NCBI RefSeq assembly: GCF_946480385.1
Contig: NZ_CAMLJP010000030.1
Location: forward strand, 1 to 54,308
Origin: an uncultured Azospirillum sp.
GTDB taxonomy: Bacteria; Pseudomonadota; Alphaproteobacteria; Azospirillales; Azospirillaceae
Direction: 5' to 3'
DNA: 54,308 nucleotides
The translations under genes were made by a program, and so were the position numbers. Below the pieces are notes generated by a model. It saw only the letters and a list, made by a program, of their open reading frames with translations. It was not told where the DNA came from and ran no database searches. Of this stretch, positions 4,334 to 21,624 are shown in pieces. Position 1 is the stretch's first letter. Each line of letters begins with the position of its first letter.

Positions 4334-4648
4334 TCACCTCGCCATGCCGTCGATGATCCGCAGCAATTGCATAATCTGCATGCGCCGTTCGGCGGGGCCC
4401 TGAACAAGACGGTCCACCAACTCCCGGGCCTCCCGAGCGTCGTCGGTGCCGTCACTGCCGTCGGCGCTCCCCAGCCAACCGCGCAGCGCCACCTCGGTCT
4501 TCCGGGCCAGTTTCACCTTATGTTTCAGAACCTTGCTGAGGTGTCCCTGGGTGCATCCGCACGCCGCGGCGACATCCTCCTGGCGCAGGCGAAGCCGCGC
4601 CATGCGTTCGTTCACCGCCCTCAGGAGTTCGTCACCGGTCGTTGACAT
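4334..4648 (-). CDS. XRE-family HTH repressor of the QueC-like operon
   Basis: A 104-residue protein. Residues 20-45 (LRQEDVAAACGCTQGHLSKV) form a classic Cro/CI-type helix-turn-helix, followed by a helical C-terminal region (EARELVDRLVQGPAERRM) suited to dimerisation. It is transcribed divergently from the five-gene operon starting at 4699, with only 50 bases between the two start codons and a perfect palindrome in that gap. The arrangement suggests a local repressor controlling both its own gene and the operon, like the small XRE regulators beside many phage-defence loci. The start at 4648 is the first ATG of the conserved region. Confidence 0.8.
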   Translation of the reverse strand: MSTTGDELLRAVNERMARLRLRQEDVAAACGCTQGHLSKVLKHKVKLARKTEVALRGWLGSADGSDGTDDAREARELVDRLVQGPAERRMQIMQLLRIIDGMAR

Positions 4649-4671
4649 GCGAGTCGCCAAATTGCATCTTG

Positions 4672-4688
4672 CATATGGATTCCATATG
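4672..4688. promoter_or_regulatory. 17-bp palindromic operator candidate
   Basis: CATATGGA-T-TCCATATG is a perfect inverted repeat with 8-bp arms and a 1-bp spacer. It lies in the 50-bp gap between the divergent XRE gene and the glycosylase gene, directly upstream of the latter's GGAAGG ribosome binding site. Two TTGCAT copies lie just to the left (4662-4675 region). An XRE dimer binding here could block both promoters. Assignment to this repressor is inferred from position and symmetry. Confidence 0.6.
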
Positions 4689-4698
4689 GAAGGCGGCC

Positions 4699-5577
4699 AT
4701 GCAACAGGTGATCGCGTCGTTCGGCGACGGGTACAGGTTCCTCGACTTGCCCGATCCCGACGAGTGGCTGCTGCCCGGCGTGAAGTGGGGCCGCCACGAG
4801 CATCCCCTGACCCCCGCCTTCTGGTCGGCCGCGGCCTGGATGGAGGGCGACGTTCCCAACCACGGTTTCCGTCTCGGCGGCACCCTGGCCGAGGAGGTTT
4901 CCGCCTGCATCCTCGGCGGTCATGGCCTTCCCGCCGAAGTCGGGCTCGCGGCATTCGCTCGGGTTCGCGACGAACTTCGGGAAGCCCCCGATGAGGTTTT
5001 GCCGGAGGAGGAGCTCCTGCGCCTGCTGTCGGCCCCCCTGATCGTGAAAGGGCGCGCGGTCCGCTACAGGTTCGCCCGCCAACGGTCGGCCTACCTCGCG
5101 GCAGCGCTCCGTGGTCTACACGGCGTGAACGAGTCGGCCCTTGACGACGTGGGGTTCCGGGATGCGCTTTTGGCCCTGCCGGGGATCGGTCCGAAGACCG
5201 CCTCTTGGATCGTGCGCAACCGGCGGGGCAGCGACAAGGTCGCCATCCTCGACGTCCACGTCGTCCGGGCCTGCCGGGTGATGGGCGTGTTTCCCGAGAA
5301 CGCGGACCCAGCCCGGAGATATGCCGAGCTTGAGCAGCGTTTCCTCCAGTTTTGCACGCGAGCCCATGCACGCGCATCCGTCATGGATGCGGTGATGTGG
5401 GATACAATGAGGAGGATATCCACGAGCTTTCTCAACTTTCTTGTTGACCCCGGTTCCGTGCTTCAGGACGTTAAACACCGTCCACGGAGGGAGCAGACGC
5501 GATGTCGGGAAGCGGGGGAGGACGAGGGGATGGCGACTTCGGCGGCGGAGGCGATGGACAACCCGATCCCTGCCTGA
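4699..5577 (+). CDS. OGG-type HhH-GPD DNA glycosylase/AP lyase
   Basis: A 292-residue helix-hairpin-helix GPD protein. The hairpin LPGIGPKTASWI holds the Lys expected to form the Schiff base (K166), and AILDVHVVRA holds the conserved catalytic Asp (D185), so both residues of a bifunctional 8-oxoguanine-type glycosylase/lyase are kept. The N-terminal 110 residues are unlike housekeeping OGG or Nth. The iron-sulphur cysteine cluster of Nth is absent. OGG-like proteins occur as an accessory (Cap11) of type IV CBASS, beside QueC-like proteins. I chose 4699 because GGAAGG precedes it by five bases; the in-frame ATG at 4675 lies inside the operator. It is first in the operon and its last 76 bases overlap the next gene. 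Confidence 0.85.
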   Translation: MQQVIASFGDGYRFLDLPDPDEWLLPGVKWGRHEHPLTPAFWSAAAWMEGDVPNHGFRLGGTLAEEVSACILGGHGLPAEVGLAAFARVRDELREAPDEVLPEEELLRLLSAPLIVKGRAVRYRFARQRSAYLAAALRGLHGVNESALDDVGFRDALLALPGIGPKTASWIVRNRRGSDKVAILDVHVVRACRVMGVFPENADPARRYAELEQRFLQFCTRAHARASVMDAVMWDTMRRISTSFLNFLVDPGSVLQDVKHRPRREQTRCREAGEDEGMATSAAEAMDNPIPA

Positions 5578-5840
5578 CCGTAAGGCAAGGTCCGATCAAC
5601 AGCCCGAACCCGGCAATCCTCGCCACGCTGACGGTCGGGAGCATTCTGGACGTTTGGGTGGCCACCTCCGGCACCAGGCCGGTGCTGGTGGTCGGCGTCG
5701 GCGGACGAGCCGCCGGTTCCCTGACGTTCCGCGGGTACCTTGACGTCATCGGCTGCATCACAAACCACGGAGTCGCCTACCGTGCTGTGATCGTCAGGAT
5801 CGCGGGCGGCGCCTACGAGGTCCGGGTGGAACCCATCTGA
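5502..5840 (+). CDS. small protein with Gly-rich N-terminal tail
   Basis: A 112-residue protein. Residues 1-18 read MSGSGGGRGDGDFGGGGD, a disordered glycine/aspartate tail, followed by a single Cys in QPDPC. Residues about 40-112 form a compact beta-rich domain (ATLTVGSILDVWV, GSLTFRGYLDVIGCI, YRAVIVRIAGG) that loosely resembles small beta-barrels such as HIRAN. I cannot name the family. A strong ACGGAGGGAG site eight bases upstream shows the tail is really translated although it lies inside the glycosylase gene in another frame. The stop overlaps the next start (TGATG). Within a QueC-like operon, a flexible-tailed small protein is a reasonable candidate for a substrate or carrier of protein-nucleobase conjugation; this is a hypothesis. 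Confidence 0.75.
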   Translation: MSGSGGGRGDGDFGGGGDGQPDPCLTVRQGPINSPNPAILATLTVGSILDVWVATSGTRPVLVVGVGGRAAGSLTFRGYLDVIGCITNHGVAYRAVIVRIAGGAYEVRVEPI

Positions 5841-7039
5841 TGGATTCCCTGATCGTCGTCGGAGGGCTGTATGCCGAGAAGTGCATACAACCGCTCTGGA
5901 ACGAGGTGTTCGGTTCCGGCGGCCGGGCCGCCGCCGCGGTGTCGTCGCTGGTGCCGACGACGCTCGTGGCATATGTCGACGCCAGCTTGCGGGTGGACGC
6001 CGACGACTTGGCGGCGCGCTTCGGGTTCACCCTCGACGCGCGCGACGCGCAGCACCCGGTGTCCTTCTCCTATCTCCATCCCCTGGCGACCCCCGTCATC
6101 CGACCGTCTCCGGACCGGATCGTGACGCACGCCCCCTTGCGGGTGCGGGGCGATGTCGTCCTGCGATACGGCATGCTCGAAGGGGACGCGGTGGTCGATG
6201 CCCAGGTCGCCGTGCACGACCCGCAGTCCGCGTTCGGCGCGAAGCCGTTCTCGGAGAACGGTTCCAAGGCGAACCGTCTGGCGGTCGTGCTTAACCGCTA
6301 CGAAGCCATGTCGATGGTCGGCACCGACGAGCCGGACGAGGTGGCGAGGCGGTTGATGCGGACCGAGAACGCCGAGGTTGTCGTCCTGAAGATGGGCGGG
6401 CACGGCGCGTTCGTGGCTTGGCCGGGCGGAACGGCAACCGTCCCTGTCTACAGCACCGAATACGTCTGGAAGATCGGCTCGGGCGACGTGTTCTCGGCCA
6501 CTTTCGCCGCCCTATGGGGCGTCCAAGGAATGGACCCCGTCCAGGCCGCGGATCTCGCGTCCCGTGCCACCGCCGACTACTGCAACCGTCGGACGCTGCC
6601 GATCCGGCAGCCCGCCGACCTGGCCGCGCTGTCGGACCCGCCGGTGACGCCCGGGAAGGGGACGATCTACCTGGCCGGGCCGTTCTTCGATCTGGCGCAG
6701 CGTTGGCTGGTCGAGGAGACGCGCGCCGTCCTGCTGGACATGGGGGCGGAGGTCTTCTCCCCCGTGCACGCGGTCGGCCCTGGCCGCGCCGAGGTCGTCG
6801 CCCCCGCCGACATCAAGGGCCTGGAGGCCAGCGATGTGATGTTCGCGATCCTGAACGGCATGGATCCCGGCACGGTCTTCGAGGTCGGCTACGCGGTGAA
6901 GCTCGGCATCCCCGTCGTGGCGTTCGCCGAGAACGTCAAGCCGGAGGACCTGAAGATGGTGGTCGGGACCGGATGCGAGGTGGTGGACGACTACACCTCG
7001 GCGGTCTACCGCGCGGTGTGGAGGTTGCCGGTATCATGA
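5840..7039 (+). CDS. PfkB-like kinase / nucleoside 2-deoxyribosyltransferase fusion
   Basis: A 399-residue two-domain protein. Residues 1-270 have the ribokinase/PfkB fold, with GSGD (213-216) supplying the catalytic Asp and anion hole; the substrate-facing N-terminal part is divergent. Residues 274-399 are a nucleoside 2-deoxyribosyltransferase: IYLAGPFF start, then MDPGTVFEVGYA with the acidic residue D342 and the nucleophile E348. Such transferases exchange the base on a deoxynucleoside, and PfkB enzymes phosphorylate sugars or nucleosides. The fusion suggests successive handling of a modified nucleobase or (deoxy)nucleoside. It starts in a one-base overlap with the previous stop and ends in an ATGA overlap with queC. 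Substrates are unknown. Confidence 0.85.
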   Translation: MDSLIVVGGLYAEKCIQPLWNEVFGSGGRAAAAVSSLVPTTLVAYVDASLRVDADDLAARFGFTLDARDAQHPVSFSYLHPLATPVIRPSPDRIVTHAPLRVRGDVVLRYGMLEGDAVVDAQVAVHDPQSAFGAKPFSENGSKANRLAVVLNRYEAMSMVGTDEPDEVARRLMRTENAEVVVLKMGGHGAFVAWPGGTATVPVYSTEYVWKIGSGDVFSATFAALWGVQGMDPVQAADLASRATADYCNRRTLPIRQPADLAALSDPPVTPGKGTIYLAGPFFDLAQRWLVEETRAVLLDMGAEVFSPVHAVGPGRAEVVAPADIKGLEASDVMFAILNGMDPGTVFEVGYAVKLGIPVVAFAENVKPEDLKMVVGTGCEVVDDYTSAVYRAVWRLPVS

Positions 7040-7629
7040 TCGGACTGCTTCTCTCCGGCGGAATGGACTCCGTTTCCATCGCGTGGTGGAAACGTCCAGA
7101 CGTCGCCATTACGGTCGACTACGGCCAGCGTCCGGCGCAGGCGGAGATCACCGCCAGCGCGGCGGCCTGCGAAGCCATGGGCATCCGGCACGAGGTGGTG
7201 CGCGCGGACTGCTCCTCGCTGGGCTCGGGCGACATGGCGGGCACGGCACCGGCCGCGGTGGCGCCGGTGTCGGAATGGTGGCCGTTCCGCAACCAGTTGA
7301 TCCTCACACTCGCGGGAATGGCGGCTGTCCGGATTGGCGTGACACACCTGATGGTTGGCGCGCTGGTCACCGATGGCGCGCACGCCGATGGGCGGCCCGA
7401 GTTCGTCGACGCCATCTCCCGGCTCATGTCCCTCCAGGAAGGCGGCATCACGGTGTCCGCCCCCGCCATCGGGATGGACGCGGCGGAACTTGTCCGTGCG
7501 TCCGGCATCCCCAGGGAGGTGCTGGCGTGGGCCCATTCCTGCCACGTCGGCAACCTCGCCTGCGGAAGCTGCCGCGGGTGCGTCAAACATTACCGGACGT
7601 GGGAAGCCCTTGGCTTGGATCCCTACTGA
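7036..7629 (+). CDS. QueC-like 7-deazaguanine (PP-loop) enzyme
   Basis: A 197-residue QueC homologue. LLLSGGMDS (residues 4-12) is the ATP-pyrophosphatase PP-loop. The C-terminal cysteines C169, C176, C179 and C182 (S-C-H...ACGSCRGC) match the QueC zinc site. PFRNQL near residue 83 matches the conserved RN motif. Housekeeping QueC converts 7-carboxy-7-deazaguanine to the amide and then to preQ0 nitrile using ATP. QueC-like Cap9 of type IV CBASS instead takes part in attaching a deazaguanine to a protein N-terminus. No queD, queE or folE is beside it, so the deazaguanine precursor would have to come from elsewhere. The gene overlaps its upstream neighbour by four bases. Confidence 0.88.
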   Translation: MIGLLLSGGMDSVSIAWWKRPDVAITVDYGQRPAQAEITASAAACEAMGIRHEVVRADCSSLGSGDMAGTAPAAVAPVSEWWPFRNQLILTLAGMAAVRIGVTHLMVGALVTDGAHADGRPEFVDAISRLMSLQEGGITVSAPAIGMDAAELVRASGIPREVLAWAHSCHVGNLACGSCRGCVKHYRTWEALGLDPY

Positions 7630-8290
7630 CGAGCCGCAGCCGCGCGCGGTTCCGCTGCCATGGGCACCCTTCGAACCGCGCGGCACCGGCGTGGAGATGC
7701 TGCCGATCCCCGCCGATCCAGCGCCGCGCGGTTTCATCGACGTGCTGCGGTCGAGGCGATCCGCCGTCGGTGGGCCGGTGGAACTCGATCGTGTCGCCGA
7801 ACTCCTCTGGCACGCGGTGGCGACCAAGGGGCATGCCCCCGCAGGCCGGGCGGGACTGCCGGTGGAATGGCGCGCGGCACCGTCTGCTGGGGCGCTGCAT
7901 CCCATCTCCGTCGTGTGCATCCCGGAGTCCGCCGAAGGCGCGTTCCTCTACGATCCGCGCGAGCACGCGTTTCGGACGCTCGACGTGGACAGCGGCCATA
8001 TCGCCGCCGCGAACGCCGCCGCCCTCGTCGCCGTGGTCGGCGCAACACGCGGATGCACGCTTCGCCTGCTGGCCGATATGGACAAGGCGGACGCCGCCTA
8101 CGAGCACGCGGCGACGCTGGTGCTTCGGGACTCCGGCTGCCTGATCGCGACGTTGTGCCTCTGCGCGGAATGGCTGGGGCTGGCCGCCTGCCCCCTCGGG
8201 TTCCTCGGCCAGGGGATGGTTGGGAAGCTCGGGTTTCCCGAGCCGCGATTCCGGGCGGTCGGCGGTGTGCAGGTCACGTCATTTCGATAG
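7610..8290 (+). CDS. SagB/ThcOx-type nitroreductase-family oxidoreductase
   Basis: About 226 residues. LRSRRSAVGG is the nitroreductase opening motif that contacts FMN phosphate, LLWHAVATKGH and PSAGALHPISVVCI follow as in SagB-type dehydrogenases, and LGFLGQGMVGKLGFPE forms the C-terminal part. SagB enzymes are FMN-dependent and oxidise azolines to azoles in peptides; related enzymes reduce or oxidise other heterocycles. The last gene of the operon, it overlaps queC at its start. The start is uncertain: TTG at 7610, or GTG 7691/ATG 7697 just before the conserved LPIPADP; none has a strong ribosome binding site, which fits translational coupling. The reaction on a QueC-linked product is unknown. 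Confidence 0.8.
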   Translation: MAWIPTDEPQPRAVPLPWAPFEPRGTGVEMLPIPADPAPRGFIDVLRSRRSAVGGPVELDRVAELLWHAVATKGHAPAGRAGLPVEWRAAPSAGALHPISVVCIPESAEGAFLYDPREHAFRTLDVDSGHIAAANAAALVAVVGATRGCTLRLLADMDKADAAYEHAATLVLRDSGCLIATLCLCAEWLGLAACPLGFLGQGMVGKLGFPEPRFRAVGGVQVTSFR

Positions 8291-9557
8291 CCGATACGCG
8301 CACCAGTTCCGCCACCCTCCCCTTGTGCGCAGCCCATATCGCGTCGATTCCGTGTTCCCCGACCGCCTGCCTCATCTTCGTCAGGGCATGATCCGAGTAA
8401 CACGGGAACTTCATGCTGCCGTGCTGGAAGACGTGGCAACACTGGGCGTCACGATCGATCCCGCACCATTGCCGGACCGCGTTGGCCTTCGGCGGCGTCA
8501 GCCCGCTTTTCGCCGCCAGATCCTTGGCGCTCATGTGGAAACGCTTGCGGAGGTCGATCTCGCGGACGGCTCCGGCCTCCTCCGGATCGTCGCTCGCGAT
8601 GATCCTCACCGGCGCGCCAACCTTCTTCTCGATCTTGATCTTCACCGTCGGTCCGGCGCCGGTCGCGGTGGCCCTCAGGGCCATGAGACGCGGAAAGACG
8701 TCGGCGACGGCCTTCCCGCCCTTGATCGCCTTCACGACGCGCTCGATGTCGCGTTCGGATACCTCGACGTGGTCGGCGACATGGGACTCCATCGCCAGCA
8801 TGGCTCTGATGCGCCCCCGGGCTTCGTCCTGGGCGCGGCGCCCGGGGGCGAGGAGGTCCGCGACCAGCCTGTACTCACGGTCGATCAGGTAGTCGAAGTC
8901 GCCCGCGGGCATGGTGGAGACCGGCAGGACGCGGGTCGGCAGGTGGGACGACAGGTCGTCGTCGAGCGACCGCTTGAGGATCGTGTCGAAGGCCGTCACC
9001 AGAGCGCGGGTGTGCAGGTAGAGGATGTCCTCCGCCACGTAGACGAACCAGTGCTGGGCCGCGTCCCGCATGGCGTCCACCGCCTTGAGGATGCCCGCCT
9101 CGTCCTCGGTGACCCCGCAGTGCATCTTCCCCAGGTTGATGCACTTCTCGAAGCCGAAGGAGACCTGCTTTTCCCGGTCAAAGACCTGCACCCGCTTCTG
9201 CACGAGCGCGGCCTTCAACAGCATCTCGGACGCATGTTGGAGATGGAGGAGAACCGTCGTCACACGGCCGTCCTCACCAAAGGAGTTGAAGCCCGTCATG
9301 GCCGTCCGAAGCGAAGCAATCGCCTTCAGCTTCAGGGTTCTTGCGTCACGGAGCAGCTTCAAGGCAGCCTCCAGATATCGGGGCGATAGAACATCATCCC
9401 GGATACCGTGTTTCAGTTGCCCAAGCGTTAACCGCGCTGGTCGGAACGAAAAATCAGGCGTGAACCCCCAACCGCCAGCGGTCCCGTCCATATCCGAGTT
9501 GTCGTGAAAGATGACATAAGGGCGACGGCGGCCCTCCACTTTGTCTGAAATCAGCAA
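8274..9557 (-). CDS. DUF3644/HEPN-like protein
   Basis: A protein of up to 427 residues, convergent with the nitroreductase (17-base overlap). The segment around residues 110-195 (HASEMLLKAALVQKRVQVFD, then AVDAMRDAAQHWFVYVAED) reads like DUF3644, a helical HEPN-related domain common in defence islands. The C-terminal part has KDLAAKSGLTPPKANAVRQW, which resembles a helix-turn-helix, then CCHVFQHGSMKFPCYSD. The indicated start is TTG; GTG a few codons in, or the ATG at 9491 are alternatives, and GGWGFTPDFSF is probably close to the family start. It is likely a stand-alone defence or RNase-like gene, but the catalytic motif is not secure. Confidence 0.6.
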   Translation of the reverse strand: MLISDKVEGRRRPYVIFHDNSDMDGTAGGWGFTPDFSFRPARLTLGQLKHGIRDDVLSPRYLEAALKLLRDARTLKLKAIASLRTAMTGFNSFGEDGRVTTVLLHLQHASEMLLKAALVQKRVQVFDREKQVSFGFEKCINLGKMHCGVTEDEAGILKAVDAMRDAAQHWFVYVAEDILYLHTRALVTAFDTILKRSLDDDLSSHLPTRVLPVSTMPAGDFDYLIDREYRLVADLLAPGRRAQDEARGRIRAMLAMESHVADHVEVSERDIERVVKAIKGGKAVADVFPRLMALRATATGAGPTVKIKIEKKVGAPVRIIASDDPEEAGAVREIDLRKRFHMSAKDLAAKSGLTPPKANAVRQWCGIDRDAQCCHVFQHGSMKFPCYSDHALTKMRQAVGEHGIDAIWAAHKGRVAELVRVSAIEMT

Positions 9558-9909: not shown

Positions 9910-10155
9910 TCATATGCCGGAATCGGCTTCAGCCCGCCGCTTGGCCTCGACGGCATTCCAGGCGCGGTACAGGGCGGCGCGGACCGCATCCATCTCGCGG
10001 GCCAAGTCCGTGTGACCAAGCCGGTCGAAGGCTATCGCCATCACGTCGATACGGTCGCGAAGCTCGCCGTGGATGTCGGCGTTGAGCGGGAGCCGTTCGT
10101 AGGGGATGTCTTTCAGGCGCATCGTCGTCCTCACTTTTGTCCGTATCCGCGTCAT
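9910..10155 (-). CDS. small helical protein coupled to tniQ, 81 aa
   Basis: Predicted to be mostly helical (HGELRDRIDVMAIAFDRLG, AREMDAVRAALYRAW). Its ATG overlaps the tniQ stop in an ATGA tetranucleotide with GGAAGGG just upstream; a second in-frame ATG at 10122 also has a GAGGA site. The coupling suggests it belongs to the transposition operon, perhaps as an accessory, although it has no recognisable domain. Confidence 0.6.
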   Translation of the reverse strand: MTRIRTKVRTTMRLKDIPYERLPLNADIHGELRDRIDVMAIAFDRLGHTDLAREMDAVRAALYRAWNAVEAKRRAEADSGI

Positions 10156-12086
10156 CGGCCCTTCCGCTGGTCCGTGTCCTCGGCTCCGTGATCCGCGCTC
10201 CGGCGCCGCGCAAGCAGGGCGTCGATCTCGGCGCGTCGGAACAGGAACTGGCGCCCGCCGTCCACCGAGGGCCCTGACACCGGCCGCGCACCCATATCGA
10301 TCAACTGGAGCGCCAGCTTCTTCGATGTGCCCAACCCCCTAGTGCCGCGCAGATCGGGTGCGGTAACGTATTCCCGGCGGAACAAAACGAGCGCCTCCTC
10401 CGTGATCCGTCCACCCCGTTCGGCCGTCGTTCCTGGCACTTTAACGGTCGGCAACCAGCCGCGGCGGACCCAGTGGTACGCGACCTCCTGCTTGATGCCG
10501 AGCGCCCTGGCCGCCCCATCGACCGATAGCGTGCGCCGCGCCGCCGCTCCCAAGGTGTCCCGGAGCGCCTCGGCGTCCGCCTTGTGGAACACCATTCTGG
10601 CAAGCCCGCGCCGTTCGGGGCGCAGGGCCGCGGGATGCAACTGCCCCTCCAGGACGGCGCGGAGGACCGCCTTGGCGCCCATACCCAGGCCGCCGAGGGC
10701 GCGCGCCGCGGTCGGCAGGCCGACGAGTTCCCCGGTGCCATGCGCCGGGCGGACGGCGGCCTCGAAGCGCCTCAGGAACGCCTCCAGGTCGGCGACGCGC
10801 CACGCACTGCGCCCCAGCAGATCGGCCGCCAAGCCCGATGCGGGCGGAGGCAGCAGGTCCGTGCCGCGCAATCCGACGAAGGTACGCTTGCCGATTCCCA
10901 GGAGGCGCCATGCCGCGTCCTGGTCAACCAGTTCCCGCAGGTCGGCGCGGAGACGGTCGACGGTGGCGGCGCGCAACAGCACCGGCTCGCCCTTTCCGCC
11001 GCTTCCGGTGACGACGAGTCCATGGCGGTCGACGAACGCCCTGAGGGTGTCGAATGCGACGCCCAGCGTCCGGGCAGCCTCGACCAGAGTGACGCACGCG
11101 TCGGGAAGGGCGGCCTCGGCGCGCTTGCGCCGGACGGCGCGCAGGCGGGTGGAGAAGTCGGGACGCATGGCGACGTGGTCGGTGAACGCCTTCCACGCGA
11201 CGCGACCGTGGGGTTCGTCGGCGACGCTGCCCAACCAAGCCGGAAGCCCGCCGTACCGCTTGGCGGCACCGTAGCGGCCGTGACGCGCGACCGCTCGTTC
11301 GGCAAGGCCATCAAGGAACCGGTGGAACGACCCAGGCCACTCTGCGCATGCCCGCCACCCGGCGTCGAGCAGCAGGTGTGCGCGATCCGGGTGCTTGTCG
11401 GCGAAGCGCGCCGGTTTGGCGCGGTATCCGACGCCGAGTTCCGTACCGCCGAACACATAGACCAGCTGGAGCACGCCGCCGACGCCGACCTCGGCGGCCA
11501 ACCCGTCCAAGGCGTCGGGCGCGGTGAGGAACAGGCGTCGCAGCGCCCCGGCCCCGGCGAGTTCGCCAACGGGCACCGGCACGCCAGGCTCCCGTCTCAG
11601 ATCGTACCCGCAGCGGCAGGCGCACGGCGACGGCACACGCCAGCCGAGGCGGCTCCCGCACGCGGGGCACCGCTCGACCAGGCGCAGGCGGTGGTCGGGG
11701 CAAATCGTCATCAGGGCCATGTCCCACAGAGCTCTGTGGTAGCCGCTTTCGTCCAAGCACCGAGGGCAGACCTTGCGCCGTCGGGCCGAGATGAAGTGGG
11801 GGTGGACGGGATGGCCGAGAAGGCGAGAGCCGCCGTCCGGCCCGGCATAGGACAGGACGGCGATGGCGGACTCGTCGAGCGCCAGCAGGCGGGACAGGAG
11901 CGGGATCGCCGAAACACTGGTGGCCAACGCCGGAAGGTCATGGTTGGACAAAACGTAGGCGTGCACTACCGGATCCGGAGAACCGAACCCGTTGACGGCG
12001 CCAGTGCGGACCATCAGGCCGAGCAGGCTCTCGTCGCGTTCCGGCCGGACCCGGATCGGAAGTCGGGGGACGTCGTCAGTCGGCAT
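10152..12086 (-). CDS. tniQ: TniQ/TnsD-type target selector with C-terminal HTH array
   Basis: A 644-residue protein. The N-terminal TniQ domain starts RLPIRVRPERDESLLGLM and carries the zinc motif CPRC (107-110), CPDH (129-132), CPAC (140-143), with a second Cys cluster near 155-159. The C-terminal 300 residues hold repeated MerR/excisionase-like helices (TLVEAARTLGVAFDTLRAF, GAARALGIKQEVAYHWVRRG, a final DALLARRR helix). TniQ/TnsD proteins recognise the attachment site and recruit TnsC. The long array is well beyond a Tn5053 TniQ (about 400 aa) and closer to TnsD, fitting sequence-specific insertion. I start at 12086; the first 11 bases overlap tnsC. Confidence 0.85.
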   Translation of the reverse strand: MPTDDVPRLPIRVRPERDESLLGLMVRTGAVNGFGSPDPVVHAYVLSNHDLPALATSVSAIPLLSRLLALDESAIAVLSYAGPDGGSRLLGHPVHPHFISARRRKVCPRCLDESGYHRALWDMALMTICPDHRLRLVERCPACGSRLGWRVPSPCACRCGYDLRREPGVPVPVGELAGAGALRRLFLTAPDALDGLAAEVGVGGVLQLVYVFGGTELGVGYRAKPARFADKHPDRAHLLLDAGWRACAEWPGSFHRFLDGLAERAVARHGRYGAAKRYGGLPAWLGSVADEPHGRVAWKAFTDHVAMRPDFSTRLRAVRRKRAEAALPDACVTLVEAARTLGVAFDTLRAFVDRHGLVVTGSGGKGEPVLLRAATVDRLRADLRELVDQDAAWRLLGIGKRTFVGLRGTDLLPPPASGLAADLLGRSAWRVADLEAFLRRFEAAVRPAHGTGELVGLPTAARALGGLGMGAKAVLRAVLEGQLHPAALRPERRGLARMVFHKADAEALRDTLGAAARRTLSVDGAARALGIKQEVAYHWVRRGWLPTVKVPGTTAERGGRITEEALVLFRREYVTAPDLRGTRGLGTSKKLALQLIDMGARPVSGPSVDGGRQFLFRRAEIDALLARRRSADHGAEDTDQRKGR

Positions 12087-13086
12087 GGCCGCCCTCCGAT
12101 CGGGCCTGTCGGCGTCTCCGTTGTCTGCGGGCGGACTCCTCCTCGACCCTCGGCCTGACCGCTTCGTCGCGCCCGGCCGCCGGGGCCGGGGCGAGCGCCT
12201 CCACAACGAAAGGATTGACCAGGCGCCGACCATCCCCGATCCGGAGCCGGTCCACCACTTCGGCGAACAGCGGATGCGACAGGGCCCCGAGCGAGCGATC
12301 CAGGGCCAATTTGAACGCCTCCTCGATCAGGAGGACCGCCGGTCCGAGCAGCCCCCGTGAGAAGTGGTGGATGCGCAGAGCCGTCTCGGCGCTGCCGAGC
12401 CGGGAGGGGAACGGAAGCCGGAGCGCCTGTTCGAGGGCGTTCAAGACCAGCCGGAACTCGTTCCTCTGATCCTGGTCCTCCCACTCGTAGGCCCCGATGT
12501 AGACCTCGCCGACCGAACGGCGCCCCAGCTGGGCGTTGGTGGTGACCACGCGCTCGATGTGCGGCTGCCCGGCCAGCACGATCGGGCAGAGGTTCGTGTT
12601 CAGCAGCCCGACGATGTAGTCGGCGGCGTCGTAGGCGATCCTGTCGGTGTCCGTATGGATCAGGCGGTGCGCCTCGTCCATCATCACCAGTTCGACGCCG
12701 CACGCCTTCAGCAGCGTATGGACGCGTTTCGTGGCCTCGACCTGGTTCGCCCGCGACGGCGCAACGTCCCCGAGGGCGGCCAGCATGGTCCTGGCGAGGG
12801 AGCGCAGGGTGCATCCGGGCGGCACCTCTATACCGAGTATCCGGCGGTGGGTGCGGAGTTGCTCCTCCACGTCCGGGTAGCGGGCCGCGTAGCGTCGCAG
12901 CGCCACGGACTTGCCCGCCCCCGGCGGACCGACCAGGAGCAGGCAATGCCCCTCCTGGCCGGTCCCGTGGCTGAGGTGGAGGTCGCGGATGCGCTCCTCG
13001 GCCTCTTCTGCCCGCCGGGTGACGGCGTATACGTCGCGGAAGGCCGCGATCCGGAGGCTCCGTTCACTCCAGTCCATCGTCGCCAT
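12076..13086 (-). CDS. tnsC: TnsC/TniB-like AAA+ transposition regulator
   Basis: About 336 residues. Walker A GPPGAGKS lies at 53-60 and Walker B VMMDEAH at about 134-140, followed by sensor-region helices (VLAGQPHIERVV). TnsC assembles on target DNA in an ATP-dependent way and links TniQ/TnsD to the TnsB transposase. The start overlaps the tnsB 3' end; MATMDW (13086) or MDWSER (13077) are both possible. The C-terminal 30 residues are Arg/Ala-rich and may contact TniQ or TnsB. Gene order and overlaps with tnsB and tniQ support the assignment. Confidence 0.87.
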   Translation of the reverse strand: MATMDWSERSLRIAAFRDVYAVTRRAEEAEERIRDLHLSHGTGQEGHCLLLVGPPGAGKSVALRRYAARYPDVEEQLRTHRRILGIEVPPGCTLRSLARTMLAALGDVAPSRANQVEATKRVHTLLKACGVELVMMDEAHRLIHTDTDRIAYDAADYIVGLLNTNLCPIVLAGQPHIERVVTTNAQLGRRSVGEVYIGAYEWEDQDQRNEFRLVLNALEQALRLPFPSRLGSAETALRIHHFSRGLLGPAVLLIEEAFKLALDRSLGALSHPLFAEVVDRLRIGDGRRLVNPFVVEALAPAPAAGRDEAVRPRVEEESARRQRRRRQARSEGGHAD

Positions 13087-15133
13087 CCCGCGGACGCATG
13101 GTGTCGGTCTTGAGTCCGTGGCGGCGAGCAATCAACTCGATGTCGTCCGCCTGAGGGGGCGCCGCGCCGGGGACGCCGACCGTCTCCATGCCTTCCAGGA
13201 GCACGTCGACGATCGGGAGCGGCGGGGTGTCGGGGGCATCGGCCTGACGCCGCCGTCCGCTTGGTTGTTGGGTGAGCTTCGCAAGGGCACGGCGTTCCTT
13301 CTGGGTGCCCTTACCTTGGCGCTTCAGGCCGTACTCGGTGATCTCAACCATCGCGCGTGCGATGTCCTCCTGCCCGGCGTACCGCAATGGGTTATTGCGG
13401 ACGAGGGCGCGGGCGACTTTGTACTGGTGCAGAGTTTTTCCGACGGCGACGTCACGCTGTTCCGGATCGACCTCAACCCTGATGTGCCGGTCGTTCGCGT
13501 CGTCGTGCACCTGGATCGCGGCAAGATCACCGGGATCAATTTTGATGCGGAACTCGGGAGGCGCCTTCGGAGCGATGCGGAGGTTCGCAAGTTCCGTACT
13601 GTTGTAACGAAGTCCCAGGAATGTGATGCCGTCCTTGCGCGGCACGCGGAATTCGGTCAGGGACAGGGAGGTCAGGACACGCTCTCGGCTCGGCGGGGCT
13701 ATCGCATGGATGCGTGCGCTGTTCTCCCACATGTCGCGGGCGGAGCGCCCTTCGAACCGGCGGCGCGGGCTGACGGCGTACACGTCGGCGATCCACCGGT
13801 GCAGCAGGTACTCGAGTTGCTCCAGGGTGACCAGGCTGGCGGTCTCCGGCGTCGGGCGGCGCACACGTCTGTAGTAGTCGGCGAAGCGCGCGCCCGTGAC
13901 GGAGCGGCATTGGGTCTGTAGGGTTCCGAAGAACCGTTCGATCTTGCCCTTGAACCGCGCCTTGCCGACGGGGGTGTACTGGACGTCGATGCCAAGGGCG
14001 GCGCAGGCGATCGGGAATTGCGGGGACCGGAACTCGGCGGCGTTGTCGGGCACGGTGCAGCCCGGAACGCCGAAGCACGGCCAGTCGTTCTGGATCTGCG
14101 GGTAGTTCTCCCGCATGTAGCCCTTCGGCAGGATCGCGTTGCGCAGACATTCGAAGGCCGTGAACAGGCTCGGCCCCTCGAAGCCGACATAGAGACCAAC
14201 GGGCATGGTACTATGCCTGTCGAGGGCGACCGTGATCCATGGATGCCCGATGATGCGATCAGGATCGGGTTCCGGGCCGTAGCAGACGAGGAAGCTCGTG
14301 ACCTCGGTATGGTCGATCTCCCATATCCGGTTGATGGCATCGACACCAGGAGCGGAGCCGACCGGCTGGAACAGCGCGTCGGCCTCCTCCTTGCCCCGGC
14401 GGGTGGCGACCAGGGTGTACTGGTCGATGCGCCGGTCCCTGATCCGGTAGAGGGTCCGCGCCGAGGGAATCTTGATCTTCATGGCCTCGGGCAGCGAGGC
14501 GTTGCGGTTGGCAGCCAGCGCGAGCAGCTTGTTGTGCGCGAAGGTGAGCGGCGGTTCCCCTGGCTGGAGGTAGCTCTCGTCGATGGCCTGGTCGGTCAGG
14601 TCCATCACTTCGCCACCGAATCTCGCGGTCCTGTTGCCCCGCCGATGGATCGTCGGCGCCAGCGCCTCGAAGGCGCGGCCGCCCTCACGGAACCGCTTGA
14701 TCCACCGCTGGACGGTGCTCGCCCCCGGCGGCGTGGGGTCGGCATTGTCGTTTGCCACCCGTTCGATCAGTCCCTTCAGCGCGCCCTTGGTGTAGGTTGC
14801 GTGCCCGCTGTCCAACCACGCCCGCACGTAACGCCAGCGCCGTGCCGTCTCCGCGTGCAGCCGGTCGTTGTTGGCGACGCGGTCCCGCATCGCCGCGAGT
14901 TCCTCCGCCCTGTCCGGGGCCTTCACAACCGGCCAGGGCAGGACGTCGAACTGCCCGGATTCGAGGAGTTGGGCGAGTTCGGCGTCAGTGTGCCGGACCT
15001 GCTCCTGGGTCTGTTCGTCCTCGAAGACCGCACTGCCGTCCGGCGCCCGGCGGACATACCGGTGGCGCCGTCCTCGGATCTCGACCGGCTGGGCGGGCAG
15101 GAAGACCATCTTCGGCGTGAACCGGCGTGCCAT
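13064..15133 (-). CDS. tnsB: TnsB-like DDE transposase
   Basis: A 689-residue transposase with an RNase H-fold catalytic core. The triad is D274 (WEIDHTEV), D363 (VPDNAAEF) and E399 (FKGKIERFFGTL). The N-terminal 200 residues contain helix-turn-helix regions for end binding (TVQRWIKRFREGG), and the C-terminal part continues into a beta-barrel-like and basic tail typical of the Mu/TnsB group. TnsB cuts the 3' transposon ends and joins them to target DNA. A GGAGG site lies six bases upstream of the ATG at 15133, and tnsA ends 11 bases earlier. No frameshift is seen, so it looks intact. Confidence 0.9.
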   Translation of the reverse strand: MARRFTPKMVFLPAQPVEIRGRRHRYVRRAPDGSAVFEDEQTQEQVRHTDAELAQLLESGQFDVLPWPVVKAPDRAEELAAMRDRVANNDRLHAETARRWRYVRAWLDSGHATYTKGALKGLIERVANDNADPTPPGASTVQRWIKRFREGGRAFEALAPTIHRRGNRTARFGGEVMDLTDQAIDESYLQPGEPPLTFAHNKLLALAANRNASLPEAMKIKIPSARTLYRIRDRRIDQYTLVATRRGKEEADALFQPVGSAPGVDAINRIWEIDHTEVTSFLVCYGPEPDPDRIIGHPWITVALDRHSTMPVGLYVGFEGPSLFTAFECLRNAILPKGYMRENYPQIQNDWPCFGVPGCTVPDNAAEFRSPQFPIACAALGIDVQYTPVGKARFKGKIERFFGTLQTQCRSVTGARFADYYRRVRRPTPETASLVTLEQLEYLLHRWIADVYAVSPRRRFEGRSARDMWENSARIHAIAPPSRERVLTSLSLTEFRVPRKDGITFLGLRYNSTELANLRIAPKAPPEFRIKIDPGDLAAIQVHDDANDRHIRVEVDPEQRDVAVGKTLHQYKVARALVRNNPLRYAGQEDIARAMVEITEYGLKRQGKGTQKERRALAKLTQQPSGRRRQADAPDTPPLPIVDVLLEGMETVGVPGAAPPQADDIELIARRHGLKTDTMRPRDGDDGLE

Positions 15134-15144
15134 GGGTGCCTCCG

Positions 15145-15879
15145 TCAGGTGAGGATGGGGGTGTGTTCCGAGATCGGTTCCTTGTGGAGTTCCAGCCGCA
15201 GGCACCCGCGCAGGGTGGCGGCGTAGATCAGGTGACGGAGTGGCGTGGGCGGCTCGGTCGGCCCGGCGGGGCGCCAGTCCGAGAGGGCGCGTTCGAGTTC
15301 GCCGAGTGTCGCGGGTGCGCGTGCGAGGGCGGCGGAGAGGGCGAGAAGGAACTCCTCCGGCGTTTCGGCGGCGCCTCCGGCCAGGACGGCCTTCGCGTTG
15401 CCAAGACGGGGTTGGCGGGCGACCTCCGCCTCGGTGATGGCGACGTAGTGAATCGCGCGCGCGGAGTAGTGATCCGCGACGGCATTGACCAGTCGGCCCT
15501 TGGCGCCGTCGAGGCTGCCGAACACGTCCACCATCACCGTGTGCGCCCTTCCGCTGGCGTCGGCCACCTCCACCTTGAACTGGACCCTGTGTTCGAGGAT
15601 CTCGCCGTCGACGTTGACCGCGATGGCGCCCTGGCGGCCCTCGTAGGACCGGACCTCGGGGGCGGACTCCAGGAGGTGCATGAAGTCCCGCTCCGCCTCC
15701 CGCTTCCACGGCATCGGGATGCCGTTCTTCCGGCTGGCGACGAGGCCCCGTTCGTTGCGGTTCCTCTGGACGGTGGTCTCGCCGCCGCTCTTCCGCGGCG
15801 GCGGCCGTATATCCGGGTCTGGACCATCGGTCCCGAAGGAAGCCTCTTCCGGACCGGCGATGTCGTCATCTTCGTTCAT
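15145..15879 (-). CDS. tnsA: TnsA-like protein, probably nuclease-deficient
   Basis: A 244-residue protein in the tnsA position directly before tnsB. The fold-level pattern matches TnsA: KREAERDF, VRSYEGRQGAIAV, then SARAIHYVAITEAEVARQP and LGNAKAV. In Tn7, TnsA cuts the 5' ends so the element leaves by cut-and-paste. Here the segments expected to hold the metal-binding Asp and the Q/E-x-K read EHRVQFKVEV and TVMVDVFGS, so the Asp and Lys appear to be replaced. The start at 15879 has a strong GGAGGG site five bases upstream. Loss of nuclease would predict replicative (cointegrate) transposition. The TnsA identity is inferred from position and the second half. Confidence 0.7.
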   Translation of the reverse strand: MNEDDDIAGPEEASFGTDGPDPDIRPPPRKSGGETTVQRNRNERGLVASRKNGIPMPWKREAERDFMHLLESAPEVRSYEGRQGAIAVNVDGEILEHRVQFKVEVADASGRAHTVMVDVFGSLDGAKGRLVNAVADHYSARAIHYVAITEAEVARQPRLGNAKAVLAGGAAETPEEFLLALSAALARAPATLGELERALSDWRPAGPTEPPTPLRHLIYAATLRGCLRLELHKEPISEHTPILT

Positions 15880-16664: not shown

Positions 16665-19220
<2,556 letters not shown>

Positions 19221-19244
19221 GGGTCTTGGCCCGAATTTCCGCCC

Positions 19245-20429
19245 CTATCCGGGGCGGATGTGGGCGTCTTCGATGCGGAACCGGCGGGCGTCCTGCCCGA
19301 GCGGGTCGAAAACCCCCTCGTCGGTGCCGGTCATCCAGGCCTGGGCACCCAATGCCAGGATTTCGCCGAACAGCGCGGCGCGCCGGTCGGGGTCGAGATG
19401 GGCCGCCACCTCGTCCAGCAGAAGGATGGGCGCCGCGCCGCGCTCGGCCGCCAGCAGCCGGGCGTTGGCCAGCACGATGGCGATCAGCAGCGCCTTCTGC
19501 TCGCCGGTGGAACAGAGCGCCGCCGGCATGTCCTTGGGCGCGTGGCGGACGGCGAGGTCGCTCTTGTGCGGTCCCGCCAACGCGCCGCCGCCGTCGGCAT
19601 CGGCGCGGCGGCCGGAGCGCAAGCTGTCGCGCAGCGCATCCTCCGCCGCCAGCGCCGGACCTTCGTCCAGCCAGCGTTCCACCGTGCCGGCGACGGAGAG
19701 GTCGGCGCCGGGGAAGGGACCGACCGAGCGGGCGCAGGCGGCGCGCAGGCGTTGCACCACCTCGCGCCGCGCGGCGGCGACGGCGATGCCGGTGGTCGCC
19801 ATCTGGTCCTCCAGCGCGCCGAGCCAGCCCTCGTCGAAGCGGCCGTCGCGCAGCAGCCGGGCGCGTTCGCGCAGCGCATGCTCATAGCGCGACAGCCGCC
19901 CGGCATGGGCGGGGTCGAAGCCGAAGACCAGCCGGTCGAGGAAGCGGCGCCGTCCGCTCGATCCTTCAAGGAACAGGCGGTCCATCTGCGGGGTCAGCCA
20001 GACCATGGCGACATGGTCGGCCAGCGCGGTCTGGCCCTTGGCGGGATGGCCGTCGATGCGGACCAGCCGTCGGTCGCGGTCCGAGGTGCGGTTGCCGTCA
20101 TGGGGTTCGCGGCCGGTGCCGATCTCCACCGGACCCATCGGGGTGTCGAGCATGGCCGCCACCGCCCAGCCGGCGCCGGGGGGCGAGCCCAGCCGCTCCA
20201 CCTCGGCCAGCCGGGCGCCGCGGATGCCGCGGCCGGGGGCGAGGAAGCTGACGGCCTCCAGCAGGTTGGTCTTACCGGCCCCGTTCGGGCCGATCAGGGC
20301 GACGGGGCGGCGGTCGGGCTCCAGCCGCGCGGAGTCGTAGCCGCGGAAGCGCGTCAGCGTCATCCGCCGCACCGCCAGAGCGGGGGCCAAAGCCGAATTG
20401 GTGGCGGACACCGGGGTGCCGCCGCTCAT
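19245..20429 (-). CDS. recF: DNA replication/repair protein RecF
   Basis: A 394-residue SMC-like ATPase that helps load RecA at gaps through the RecFOR pathway. Walker A LIGPNGAGKTNLLEA is near the N-terminus, the signature STGEQKALLIAIVLA and Walker B ILLLDEVAAHLD are in the C-terminal half. MTLTRFRGYDSARLEPD is the family opening. I chose the start at 20429 (MSGGTPV), which still leaves a 20-residue N-terminal extension; the internal ATG before TLTRF is an alternative. It lies between dnaN and gyrB on the same strand, the common bacterial order. Confidence 0.95.
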   Translation of the reverse strand: MSGGTPVSATNSALAPALAVRRMTLTRFRGYDSARLEPDRRPVALIGPNGAGKTNLLEAVSFLAPGRGIRGARLAEVERLGSPPGAGWAVAAMLDTPMGPVEIGTGREPHDGNRTSDRDRRLVRIDGHPAKGQTALADHVAMVWLTPQMDRLFLEGSSGRRRFLDRLVFGFDPAHAGRLSRYEHALRERARLLRDGRFDEGWLGALEDQMATTGIAVAAARREVVQRLRAACARSVGPFPGADLSVAGTVERWLDEGPALAAEDALRDSLRSGRRADADGGGALAGPHKSDLAVRHAPKDMPAALCSTGEQKALLIAIVLANARLLAAERGAAPILLLDEVAAHLDPDRRAALFGEILALGAQAWMTGTDEGVFDPLGQDARRFRIEDAHIRPG

Positions 20430-20493
20430 CGATACCGCCGTTTGCTGCAACTGGTCCGTTCCGCCTGGGGCGGGGACGATCCCCGCAGCCCCA

Positions 20494-21624
20494 TCACACA
20501 CGCATCGGCATCAGGACGTAGAGCGCGGTGGAGTCGGCGACGTCGCGGATGATGGTCGGCGACGCGGCGTCGGCCAGCGTGAACTGGGCGCCCTCGCCCT
20601 CGATCTGCTGCGTGATGTCCAGCAGATAGCGAGAGTTGAAGCCGATTTCCAGCGGGGTCTCGGCGTAATTGACCTCCAGCTCCTCGGTGGCGCTGCCCGA
20701 TTCCGGGCTGGTGGCCGACAGGGTCAGGGCGCCGCGGACGAGCGACAGCTTCACCGCCCGGCTCTTCTCGGTGGAGATGGTGGCGACGCGATCGACGGCG
20801 GCGGCGAACAGCTTGGCGTCCACCTCCATCACCTTGTCGTTGCCGACCGGGATCACCCGCTCATAGTCGGGGAAGGTGCCGTCGATCAGCTTGGAGGTGA
20901 CGACGACGCTGTCGAAGCCGAAGCGGATTTTGTTGTCGGACAGCGACAGCTCGATGCGGTCGGCGGCCTCGTCCACCAGCTTGCGGATCTCGGTGACGGT
21001 CTTGCGCGGGATGATGACGCCGGGGATGCCCTCGGCCCCGTCCGGCAGCGGCATCTCGACCCGCGCCAGCCGGTGGCCGTCGGTGGCGACGGCGCGCAGC
21101 ACCGGCGTCTCCAGGCTGCCCATCTTGCTCTTGGCGGCGTGCAGGTAGATGCCGTTCAGGTAATAGCGCGTCTCCTCGGTGGAGATCGCGAAGCGGGTGC
21201 GGTCGATCAGCCCGCGCAGGTCGGCGGCGGCGACCGAGAAATTGTGCTTCAGCTCACCGCTGGACAGCTGCGGGAAATCCTCCACCGGCAGGCAGGACAG
21301 CTTGAATTGCGAGCGGCCGGCGCGCAGCGTCAGGATGGTGCCGTCGCCGCCGATGTCCAGCTCCACCTGGCTGCCGTCGGGCAGCTTGCGGACGATGTCG
21401 AACAGGGTGTGGGCGGGGGCGGTGGTGCCGCCGGGGCGCCCGACCGTCGCCGGGACGGTCTCGACGATCTCCAGGTCCATGTCGGTGGCGGCCAGCGACA
21501 GTTCGCCGTCGCCCGCGCGCAGCAGGACGTTGGACAGGATCGGAATGGTGTTCCGCCGCTCGACCACACTCTGCACGTGACCCAGGGAACGGAGAAGGGC
21601 GGCGCGTTCGATGGTGATGTTCAT
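20494..21624 (-). CDS. dnaN: DNA polymerase III beta sliding clamp
   Basis: A 376-residue sliding clamp, starting MNITIERAALLRSLGHVQ and ending in YVLMPMRV, the standard C-terminus of DnaN. It dimerises around DNA and tethers polymerase III and other partners. Three clamp-like domains are visible by repeated motifs such as SEEDFPQL-type and FNSRYLLDI segments. Length matches the family (about 370 aa). I started at 21624 rather than the longer frame because the conserved sequence starts there. recF follows 64 bases downstream on the same strand. Confidence 0.97.
   Translation of the reverse strand: MNITIERAALLRSLGHVQSVVERRNTIPILSNVLLRAGDGELSLAATDMDLEIVETVPATVGRPGGTTAPAHTLFDIVRKLPDGSQVELDIGGDGTILTLRAGRSQFKLSCLPVEDFPQLSSGELKHNFSVAAADLRGLIDRTRFAISTEETRYYLNGIYLHAAKSKMGSLETPVLRAVATDGHRLARVEMPLPDGAEGIPGVIIPRKTVTEIRKLVDEAADRIELSLSDNKIRFGFDSVVVTSKLIDGTFPDYERVIPVGNDKVMEVDAKLFAAAVDRVATISTEKSRAVKLSLVRGALTLSATSPESGSATEELEVNYAETPLEIGFNSRYLLDITQQIEGEGAQFTLADAASPTIIRDVADSTALYVLMPMRV

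Follow-up and report, generated by a model that had tools for sequence, protein, structure and literature searches.

What does a QueC-like enzyme do in a compact operon in which it is accompanied by a base-handling enzyme and a small tailed protein? The question is raised by a 54,308-nucleotide stretch of an uncultured Azospirillum sp. (contig NZ_CAMLJP010000030.1; this whole stretch is hereafter called the window), where genes for an OGG-like glycosylase/lyase, a small protein, a fusion of a PfkB kinase domain with a nucleoside 2-deoxyribosyltransferase (PfkB-NDT), a QueC-like enzyme and a nitroreductase follow one another beside a divergent regulator gene. A first-pass annotation had proposed this operon as a candidate nucleobase-based defence system. 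In type IV CBASS (cyclic oligonucleotide-based antiphage signalling system), where QueC and OGG are also paired, the QueC-family enzyme Cap9 joins a base to an N-terminal amine (protein deazaguanylation, NDG), and the NDG tail docks in Cap10, a protein resembling tRNA-guanine transglycosylase (TGT). Our favoured reading, to which we assign a probability of about 0.6, is that of a mobile defence module with a QueC-family protein ligase at its centre, which would tag the N-terminus of its partner with a nucleobase. The module is intact and widely conserved, and is often found on mobile DNA and among defence genes; its QueC-family enzyme is near Cap9 in predicted fold, and is accompanied by a tailed, HIRAN-like partner (as judged from its model) with a nearly fixed N-terminal motif. 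Sequence and predicted structure suggest that the enzyme tags this N-terminus, that the tag is a nucleobase and that the whole protects against phage.

Conservation was assessed by running a QueC profile derived from 22 close relatives on a genome collection. At least 539 relatives were confirmed, the best 80 of which define the 80 loci (L numbers) considered below, and 22 further loci were taken from 15 of the 24 plasmid matches with at least 45% identity and from 7 viral contigs. Profile searches in the 80 loci detected the OGG gene in 74, the small protein in 75, PfkB-NDT in 78, the QueC-like enzyme in 80 and the nitroreductase in 79. The order small protein, PfkB-NDT, QueC, nitroreductase is constant where these genes are present, with the exceptions of L049 and L061, where one copy is without a nitroreductase. 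The set first described from this one locus recurs as a unit, in the same gene order across loci and far above chance. The OGG gene is located upstream on the same strand in 39 loci, downstream and convergent in 35, and is absent from 6, among which L003 and L005 look like remnants and L029, L041, L074 and L077 are on short contigs or near contig ends. Small protein, PfkB-NDT and QueC occur together in 21 of the 22 further loci (the remaining one begins at its contig end), compared to 15 for OGG and 9 for the nitroreductase; the core is therefore composed of three genes, encoding the tailed HIRAN-like protein, PfkB-NDT and the QueC-like enzyme, the others being common accessories.

According to record titles, the hosts include Proteobacteria, Myxococcota, Acidobacteria, Bacteroidetes-type genera, Ignavibacteria, a cyanobacterium and haloarchaea. 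The module is rare: among 289 genomes sampled from the class to which the nearest genome belongs, one carries it (E 1e-30). Carriage by phages is unsupported, as QueC matches in sequenced phages do not exceed 31.3% identity and the small protein has no match there. Additional copies were observed in a few loci: L049 contains two tandem small protein-NDT-QueC copies, of which the second lacks a nitroreductase, together with a single OGG and a single Dam gene; in L061 a damaged second copy (an NDT fragment, QueC in two frames and a nitroreductase, with no small-protein match) lies beside an intact core; and on viral contig L145 a second small protein and NDT (5591-7140) stand directly behind the first module.

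The Gly tail that had been noticed on the small protein is real, and is located at the N-terminus. The first-pass annotation overlooked the motif that this tail carries, the HIRAN-like fold of the protein, the exchangeable nature of the accessories and the earlier publication of the QueC and PfkB-NDT pair as Cluster 4 of PF06508. With starts assigned by a rule blind to the motif, 70 of 76 locus open reading frames (ORFs) begin with M[ST]G. The same start is seen in 91 of 104 database relatives, and a rough background set gave it in 6 of 374 ORFs. The small proteins of haloarchaea (n = 3) start with MGGGG, MGGGSG and MCGGG, and that of viral contig L146 with MGGSGG. No Pfam family was found above its cut-off for the small protein. 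Its predicted structure contains a folded domain, for which structure comparison found a beta-rich, HIRAN-like fold, resembling the HIRAN domain of HLTF/Rad5 and the C-terminal part of HamB but differing from them by the absence of a Pfam HIRAN match. This comparison, like that made for the QueC-like enzyme below, realigned only the chains ranked by Foldseek, and a fold that is not listed there is not thereby absent.

The QueC-like protein (197 aa, with its PP loop at residue 7) shares with canonical QueC, the preQ0 synthase, the SGGxDS and RN motifs, the Asp of YPDC and the four zinc Cys. The latter had been pointed out from the start, and are nearly invariant (C169 in 81/81, C176 in 80/80, C179 in 80/81 and C182 in 80/81 of the rows with a letter, 82 being aligned). 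It differs from canonical QueC in the substrate motif, where YPDC is replaced by HADG, the Tyr being a His (H116) in 82/82 rows. The nearest fold to its model, according to VIA-align, is Cap9. The Cluster 4 motif CH(x)5CxxCxGCxK is present as CHVGNLACGSCRGCVK at residues 169-184, and the second Cluster 4 motif, YGQ(x)6E, corresponds here to Y29 G30 Q31 followed by E37, with five residues between instead of six. No QueD match was found within 80 kb of any module QueC on the same contig of the carrier genomes, and a separate canonical QueC (above 180 bits) is present in 36 of the 46 carriers.

The working mode proposed here is known from type IV CBASS; the partner protein, the pocket and the operon partners are not. 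The module differs from that system by a partner that is HIRAN-like in predicted fold rather than a CD-NTase (cGAS/DncV-like nucleotidyltransferase), by Ser or Thr at position 2 in most of these partners, by HADG in place of a YPDC-type pocket and by the presence of PfkB-NDT. Whereas type IV CBASS has a CD-NTase in its operon, none of the 17 window proteins scanned with Pfam matched SMODS. A TGT-like Cap10 was not recognised by eye among 14 recurrent neighbour families, no direct TGT search being made. A recent article describes type IV CBASS and Qat as defence systems based on QueC, leaves the reaction and substrate of Qat open and reports that QatB starts with MGTS and the CD-NTase of type IV CBASS with MGGS, G2D abolishing defence in both (PMC13279940). 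The module resembles qatABCD in combining a QueC-family enzyme, a tailed partner with an N-terminal motif and a remodelled base pocket. Neither QatA (KAP NTPase) nor QatD (TatD) was found among the eight proteins scanned with Pfam (six of the module and two flanking), and the extensions of QatC are missing, the 197-aa model aligning to residues 150-375 of its ~427 only; QatB is helical according to the same article (PMC13279940), whereas the partner here is predicted to be beta-rich and HIRAN-like.

The closest printed precedent is Cluster 4 of PF06508 (Libby et al. 2026, PMC13329287), in which QueC occurs with PfkB-NDT and is read as belonging to purine salvage. That cluster and the module have in common the CH(x)5CxxCxGCxK motif, the PfkB-NDT neighbour and a helix-turn-helix (HTH) neighbour; the part of the article that was available mentions no tailed small protein, OGG or nitroreductase, and its count for the word 'glycosylase' is zero. 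In the open PMC literature, QueC, deoxyribosyltransferase and PfkB were found together only in PMC13329287; the listed papers in which HIRAN and QueC co-occur are unrelated, and those with QueC and dGTPase do not, judging by title, concern this set. A description of the full set elsewhere is possible.

The neighbourhood of the module was compared with that of canonical QueC in 36 of the same 46 carrier genomes (G numbers), for neighbour families that had been picked for their recurrence near modules or seen in annotated plasmids. A dGTPase gene is present in 17/46 module loci vs 0/36 control loci (Fisher p 1.3e-5), and an IetA-like gene in 2/46 vs 0/36. Across the 80 loci, the neighbours comprise dGTPase (22), Dam (10), a Vut-type transporter (6, one of them a fragment), IetA-like (5) and Mrr (4). 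PADLOC models (E up to 1e-15) gave 56 families in 73 sampled module-side ORFs, many of them overlapping models matched by one protein, vs 2 families in 73 control ORFs. The 25 module-side families shown include dGTPase with 10 members and mad3 with 3, as well as single members of CBASS cyclase, phospholipase effector, ThsB, DrmD, DruM and type II methyltransferase; on the control side, mad3 occurs in 4 and mad2 in 2. Other copies have annotated TIR proteins, restriction genes and multi-ubiquitin/ThiF genes nearby. For hsdR, 4 of 37 matches lie within 25 kb of a module (G322, G310, G311 and G333), a weak signal that is not part of the main evidence.

Accessory genes may be tightly joined to the core. 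In L081 (Moraxella) a dGTPase gene is directly 3' of QueC, overlaps its end and occupies the place of the nitroreductase; an Mrr gene overlaps QueC in L098 and L101 (rhizobia) and stands just after the nitroreductase in L097 (Methylocystis), its identity having been checked with Pfam for L097 and L098. Two further families were observed near modules: x486 in L007, L008, L009, L010, L012, L013, L035, L046, L050 and L071, with dGTPase in all ten, and x261 in L002, L003, L005, L058 and L060, with dGTPase in all of these except L003 (4/5); their representatives (from L050 and L005, respectively) have no Pfam, NCBIfam or PADLOC match. CD-NTases are not consistent neighbours, in agreement with the initial description of this locus: a SMODS match lies no more than 5 kb from the module QueC in 1/46 carriers and no more than 15 kb from it in 4/46. 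The 14 SMODS matches are distributed over 11/46 carriers, and 4 of the 14 lie within 15 kb of a module vs ~0.07 expected from a crude Poisson estimate (3 kb in G322, 8 kb in G314, 10 kb in G313 and 14 kb in G295, start to start). In Frateuria (L090), HsdM, HsdS, a small membrane protein and a CD-NTase, identified by eye, precede the module.

The accessory enzymes look active rather than mere scaffolds, because their putative catalytic residues are kept across the aligned rows. K166 and D185 of the OGG-like protein, as first numbered from the start at 4699, correspond to K174 and D193 from the start at 4675 and are invariant in 74/74 rows; D216 of PfkB and E348 of NDT are invariant in 78/78 rows, and among 21 dGTPases, 20 or all 21 retain H83, H129, D130 and other residues. 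The catalytic roles are those expected for the respective families. In the window itself, all members have open frames, in line with the earlier statement that they look intact.

Under the favoured reading, the small protein would first lose its Met, so that Ser (in some relatives Thr, Gly or Cys) is exposed at the end of a flexible Gly/Ser tail, as the motif suggests. The QueC-like enzyme would bind ATP and a guanine-shaped base bearing a carboxylate or amide, probably held by D118 and H116, which in the predicted fold stand where QueC has Asp and Tyr, and would join this base to the N-terminal amine of the small protein, as Cap9 does in type IV CBASS. PfkB-NDT may supply or recycle the base or its nucleoside, and a transporter may import a precursor where the host cannot make 7-deazaguanines. 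The HIRAN-like domain, going by its fold, might bring the protein, once tagged, to the invader's DNA ends or replication intermediates. The accessories, namely the OGG-like protein and nitroreductase here and a dGTPase, Mrr-type endonuclease or Dam elsewhere, could then execute or limit the attack.

Several points weigh against this reading. The argument for defence comes from gene context, and that for tagging from sequence and predicted structure. Position 2 of the small protein is Ser here, whereas the acceptor shown for CBASS and that proposed for Qat are Gly, and an M[STGC]G start is missing from both small proteins of A. brasilense L100. The HIRAN match is one of fold, as no Foldseek E value was below 0.001 and no Pfam HIRAN match was obtained among 82 small-protein members at E up to 1. 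In Cap9 and QueC a Tyr stacks on the base, and its place is taken here by a His; Foldseek places B. subtilis QueC above Cap9. Among the neighbours, Dam is weakly significant (6/46 vs 0/36, p 0.03), and Mrr (3/46 vs 0/36, p 0.25) and the Vut-type transporter (2/46, one being the L008 fragment, vs 1/36, p 1.0) are not enriched significantly; the test is moreover not independent, because the families were chosen for their recurrence near modules. A dGTPase is present somewhere in 42/46 carrier genomes, and for that reason is by itself no proof of defence.

The nature of the base adds a further difficulty. Neither canonical QueC nor QueD was found in 5/46 carriers (G292, G297, G300, G317 and G330), and 7-carboxy-7-deazaguanine made by the host is for this reason unlikely as a universal substrate. 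The module records of G300 and G330 are titled 'complete sequence', and QueE, searched in 23/46 carriers, gave no match or matches at 7.7e-5 or weaker in these five. The QueC and QueD searches were not fully sensitive, nine other carriers having a canonical QueC without a QueD match and G332-G335 a QueD match without a canonical QueC match. A Vut-type match exists in 4 of the 5 carriers. This transporter lies directly beside the module in L004, L020 and L041 (3/80 loci) and on Roseivivax plasmid L103, where it is annotated with queuosine salvage, and ~6 kb off in L010, L071 and L008 (the fragment); the hosts of L020 and L004 have no canonical QueC match. The deazaguanine-type base of the first-pass annotation gains from the transporters near some modules and loses from the five carriers, the pocket His and the lack of transporter enrichment over the control. 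A 7-deazaguanine is kept as a first guess, from the QueC family, the retained Asp and the transporter beside some modules.

The alternative that survives best, which we nevertheless consider rather unlikely, is salvage of purines or 7-deazapurines, in which PfkB-NDT would free or exchange bases, the QueC-like enzyme would amidate them and the small protein would be a carrier or scaffold. It is near the published reading of Cluster 4, where purine salvage is proposed (PMC13329287). PfkB-NDT and QueC are metabolic families that look catalytically intact, and the transporter neighbours (6/80 loci and L103) would be expected. Such a role fits poorly with the very sparse distribution (1/289 genomes), with copies on plasmids and viral contigs and, here, next to transposase genes, and with the many defence neighbours; it leaves the M[ST]G tail, the HIRAN-like domain, the Mrr nuclease and OGG unexplained.

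A doubtful extension of the tagging scheme is a nucleobase-tagged DNA sensor with interchangeable readers. By analogy with the NDG tail in Cap10, the tag on the HIRAN-like tail might dock in the guanine pockets of OGG, PfkB-NDT and dGTPase, and would restrain these enzymes or steer them to phage DNA. Where the SagB-like oxidase is present, the tag could conceivably include an azole cap, if the amide-activating half of QueC chemistry were to turn the Ser or Thr into an azoline that is then oxidised; we know of no precedent for a heteroaryl-nucleobase protein cap. This part is weakened by loci with Ser2 and no nitroreductase (L081, L098, L099, L101, L143 and L144); the haloarchaeal Gly2/Cys2 cases, on the other hand, are without nitroreductase. 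Oxazole closure is not retained as a general mechanism because of the Gly or Cys at position 2 in three haloarchaea and the Ser2 loci lacking the nitroreductase.

The base-exchange role originally given to the operon, which would make a deazaguanine-type nucleotide for DNA with NDT exchanging bases as TGT does elsewhere, now appears improbable. NDT, OGG and, in some loci, dGTPase and Dam belong to families acting on nucleosides, guanine nucleotides or DNA, as this would require; the N-terminal motif is left unexplained, the nearest fold according to VIA-align is a protein ligase (Cap9), and the inspection of neighbours by eye mentioned above, which was not a direct search, yielded no TGT-like protein. 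Still less credible is maturation of the small protein as a precursor peptide by the SagB-like oxidase and QueC-like enzyme, as for ribosomally synthesised and post-translationally modified peptides. The flexible Ser/Gly tail and the resemblance of the nitroreductase to TIGR03605 would suit it, but the small protein has a predicted folded domain, the nitroreductase is absent from 13/22 further loci, and an exporter or protease is not a regular neighbour, an ABC-type ATPase and an FtsH-like AAA protein (by eye) recurring in 5/80 loci each. A type IV CBASS worn down by loss of its CD-NTase would account for the QueC and OGG pairing and the proximity to Cap9, and is largely refuted because the conserved form is so broad, the five-gene set being intact across several phyla with a CD-NTase as a rare neighbour and a small protein that is HIRAN-like in fold rather than a CD-NTase.

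The coordinates of the module are given below. As first described, five overlapping open frames and the divergent XRE gene are present, with overlaps of 76 nt (OGG/small protein), 1 nt (small protein/PfkB-NDT), 4 nt (PfkB-NDT/QueC) and, if the nitroreductase begins at TTG 7610, 20 nt (QueC/nitroreductase). Every operon enzyme exceeds its Pfam cut-off, and PADLOC names QueC alone, weakly (5.4e-11). The nitroreductase matches PF00881 (7.7e-8); for its assignment to the SagB type, TIGR03605 gives 8.8e-15 but 54.6 bits for a cut-off of 78.4. Across the full interval, the closest record is replicon NZ_CP007794.1 of Azospirillum argentinense (99.8%).

Table 1. Features of the QueC-containing operon and its regulator (positions in the window)
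Feature	Position	Strand	Evidence or remark
XRE/HTH regulator, divergent	4334..4648	-	HTH_37 1.3e-5, 25.3 bits, slightly under cut-off 27 (Pfam)
Inverted repeat, 8-bp arms, CATATGGA-T-TCCATATG	4672..4688	.	Spans OGG start; likely XRE operator (predicted)
OGG-like HhH (helix-hairpin-helix) glycosylase/AP (apurinic/apyrimidinic) lyase	4675..5577, alternative start 4699	+	PF22175 Ogg-HhH 6.9e-12
Small protein, 112 aa	5502..5840	+	Tail MSGSGGGRGD..., then HIRAN-like domain (predicted) from ~residue 21
PfkB kinase domain + nucleoside 2-deoxyribosyltransferase (NDT) fusion	5840..7039	+	PF00294 2.3e-7, PF05014 Nuc_deoxyrib_tr 4.2e-18
QueC-like PP-loop ATPase, candidate protein-nucleobase ligase	7036..7629	+	QueC Pfam 1.5e-24
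SagB-like nitroreductase, TTG start	7610..8290	+	PF00881 7.7e-8

The palindrome reported earlier was found as CATATGGATTCCATATG, and 19 of 32 XRE-bearing relatives scanned carry, near the OGG start, a palindrome whose two arms both contain ATGCAT; a relative of the XRE gene was detected by profile search in 36/80 loci. The regulator would repress the operon through this palindrome.

The next gene is convergent (8274-9557, minus strand) and matches PDC-S19 (PADLOC 1.8e-161), with DUF3644 and HEPN matches that are both under their cut-offs; it is a candidate defence gene in its own right. It is followed on the minus strand by tniQ (PF06527), tniB (PF05621) and a Mu-type transposase (PF09299), a Tn7/Tn5053-type block (10152-15709). 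The operon had been placed in a transposon with other defence-like genes; it does adjoin this block, and modules elsewhere are found preferentially among defence genes. Immediately past the transposase come genes for DNA gyrase B and a RecF/SMC-type protein (16665-20501, minus strand), and the transposon-like element may therefore be located at the 3' end of gyrB. Further on (27132-30656, minus strand) lies a UvrD-type helicase with a PD-(D/E)XK nuclease domain and GajB-like PADLOC matches.

If the favoured reading is correct, the module would be a third QueC-based defence system, and nucleobase tags on protein N-termini would be a recurring trick of bacterial and archaeal immunity. Cluster 4 of PF06508, now read as purine salvage, would acquire a further function, and dGTPase, OGG and Mrr genes could be linked under one scheme. 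The presence in a single operon of a putative 112-aa substrate, a compact candidate ligase and a base-handling enzyme could ease reconstitution.

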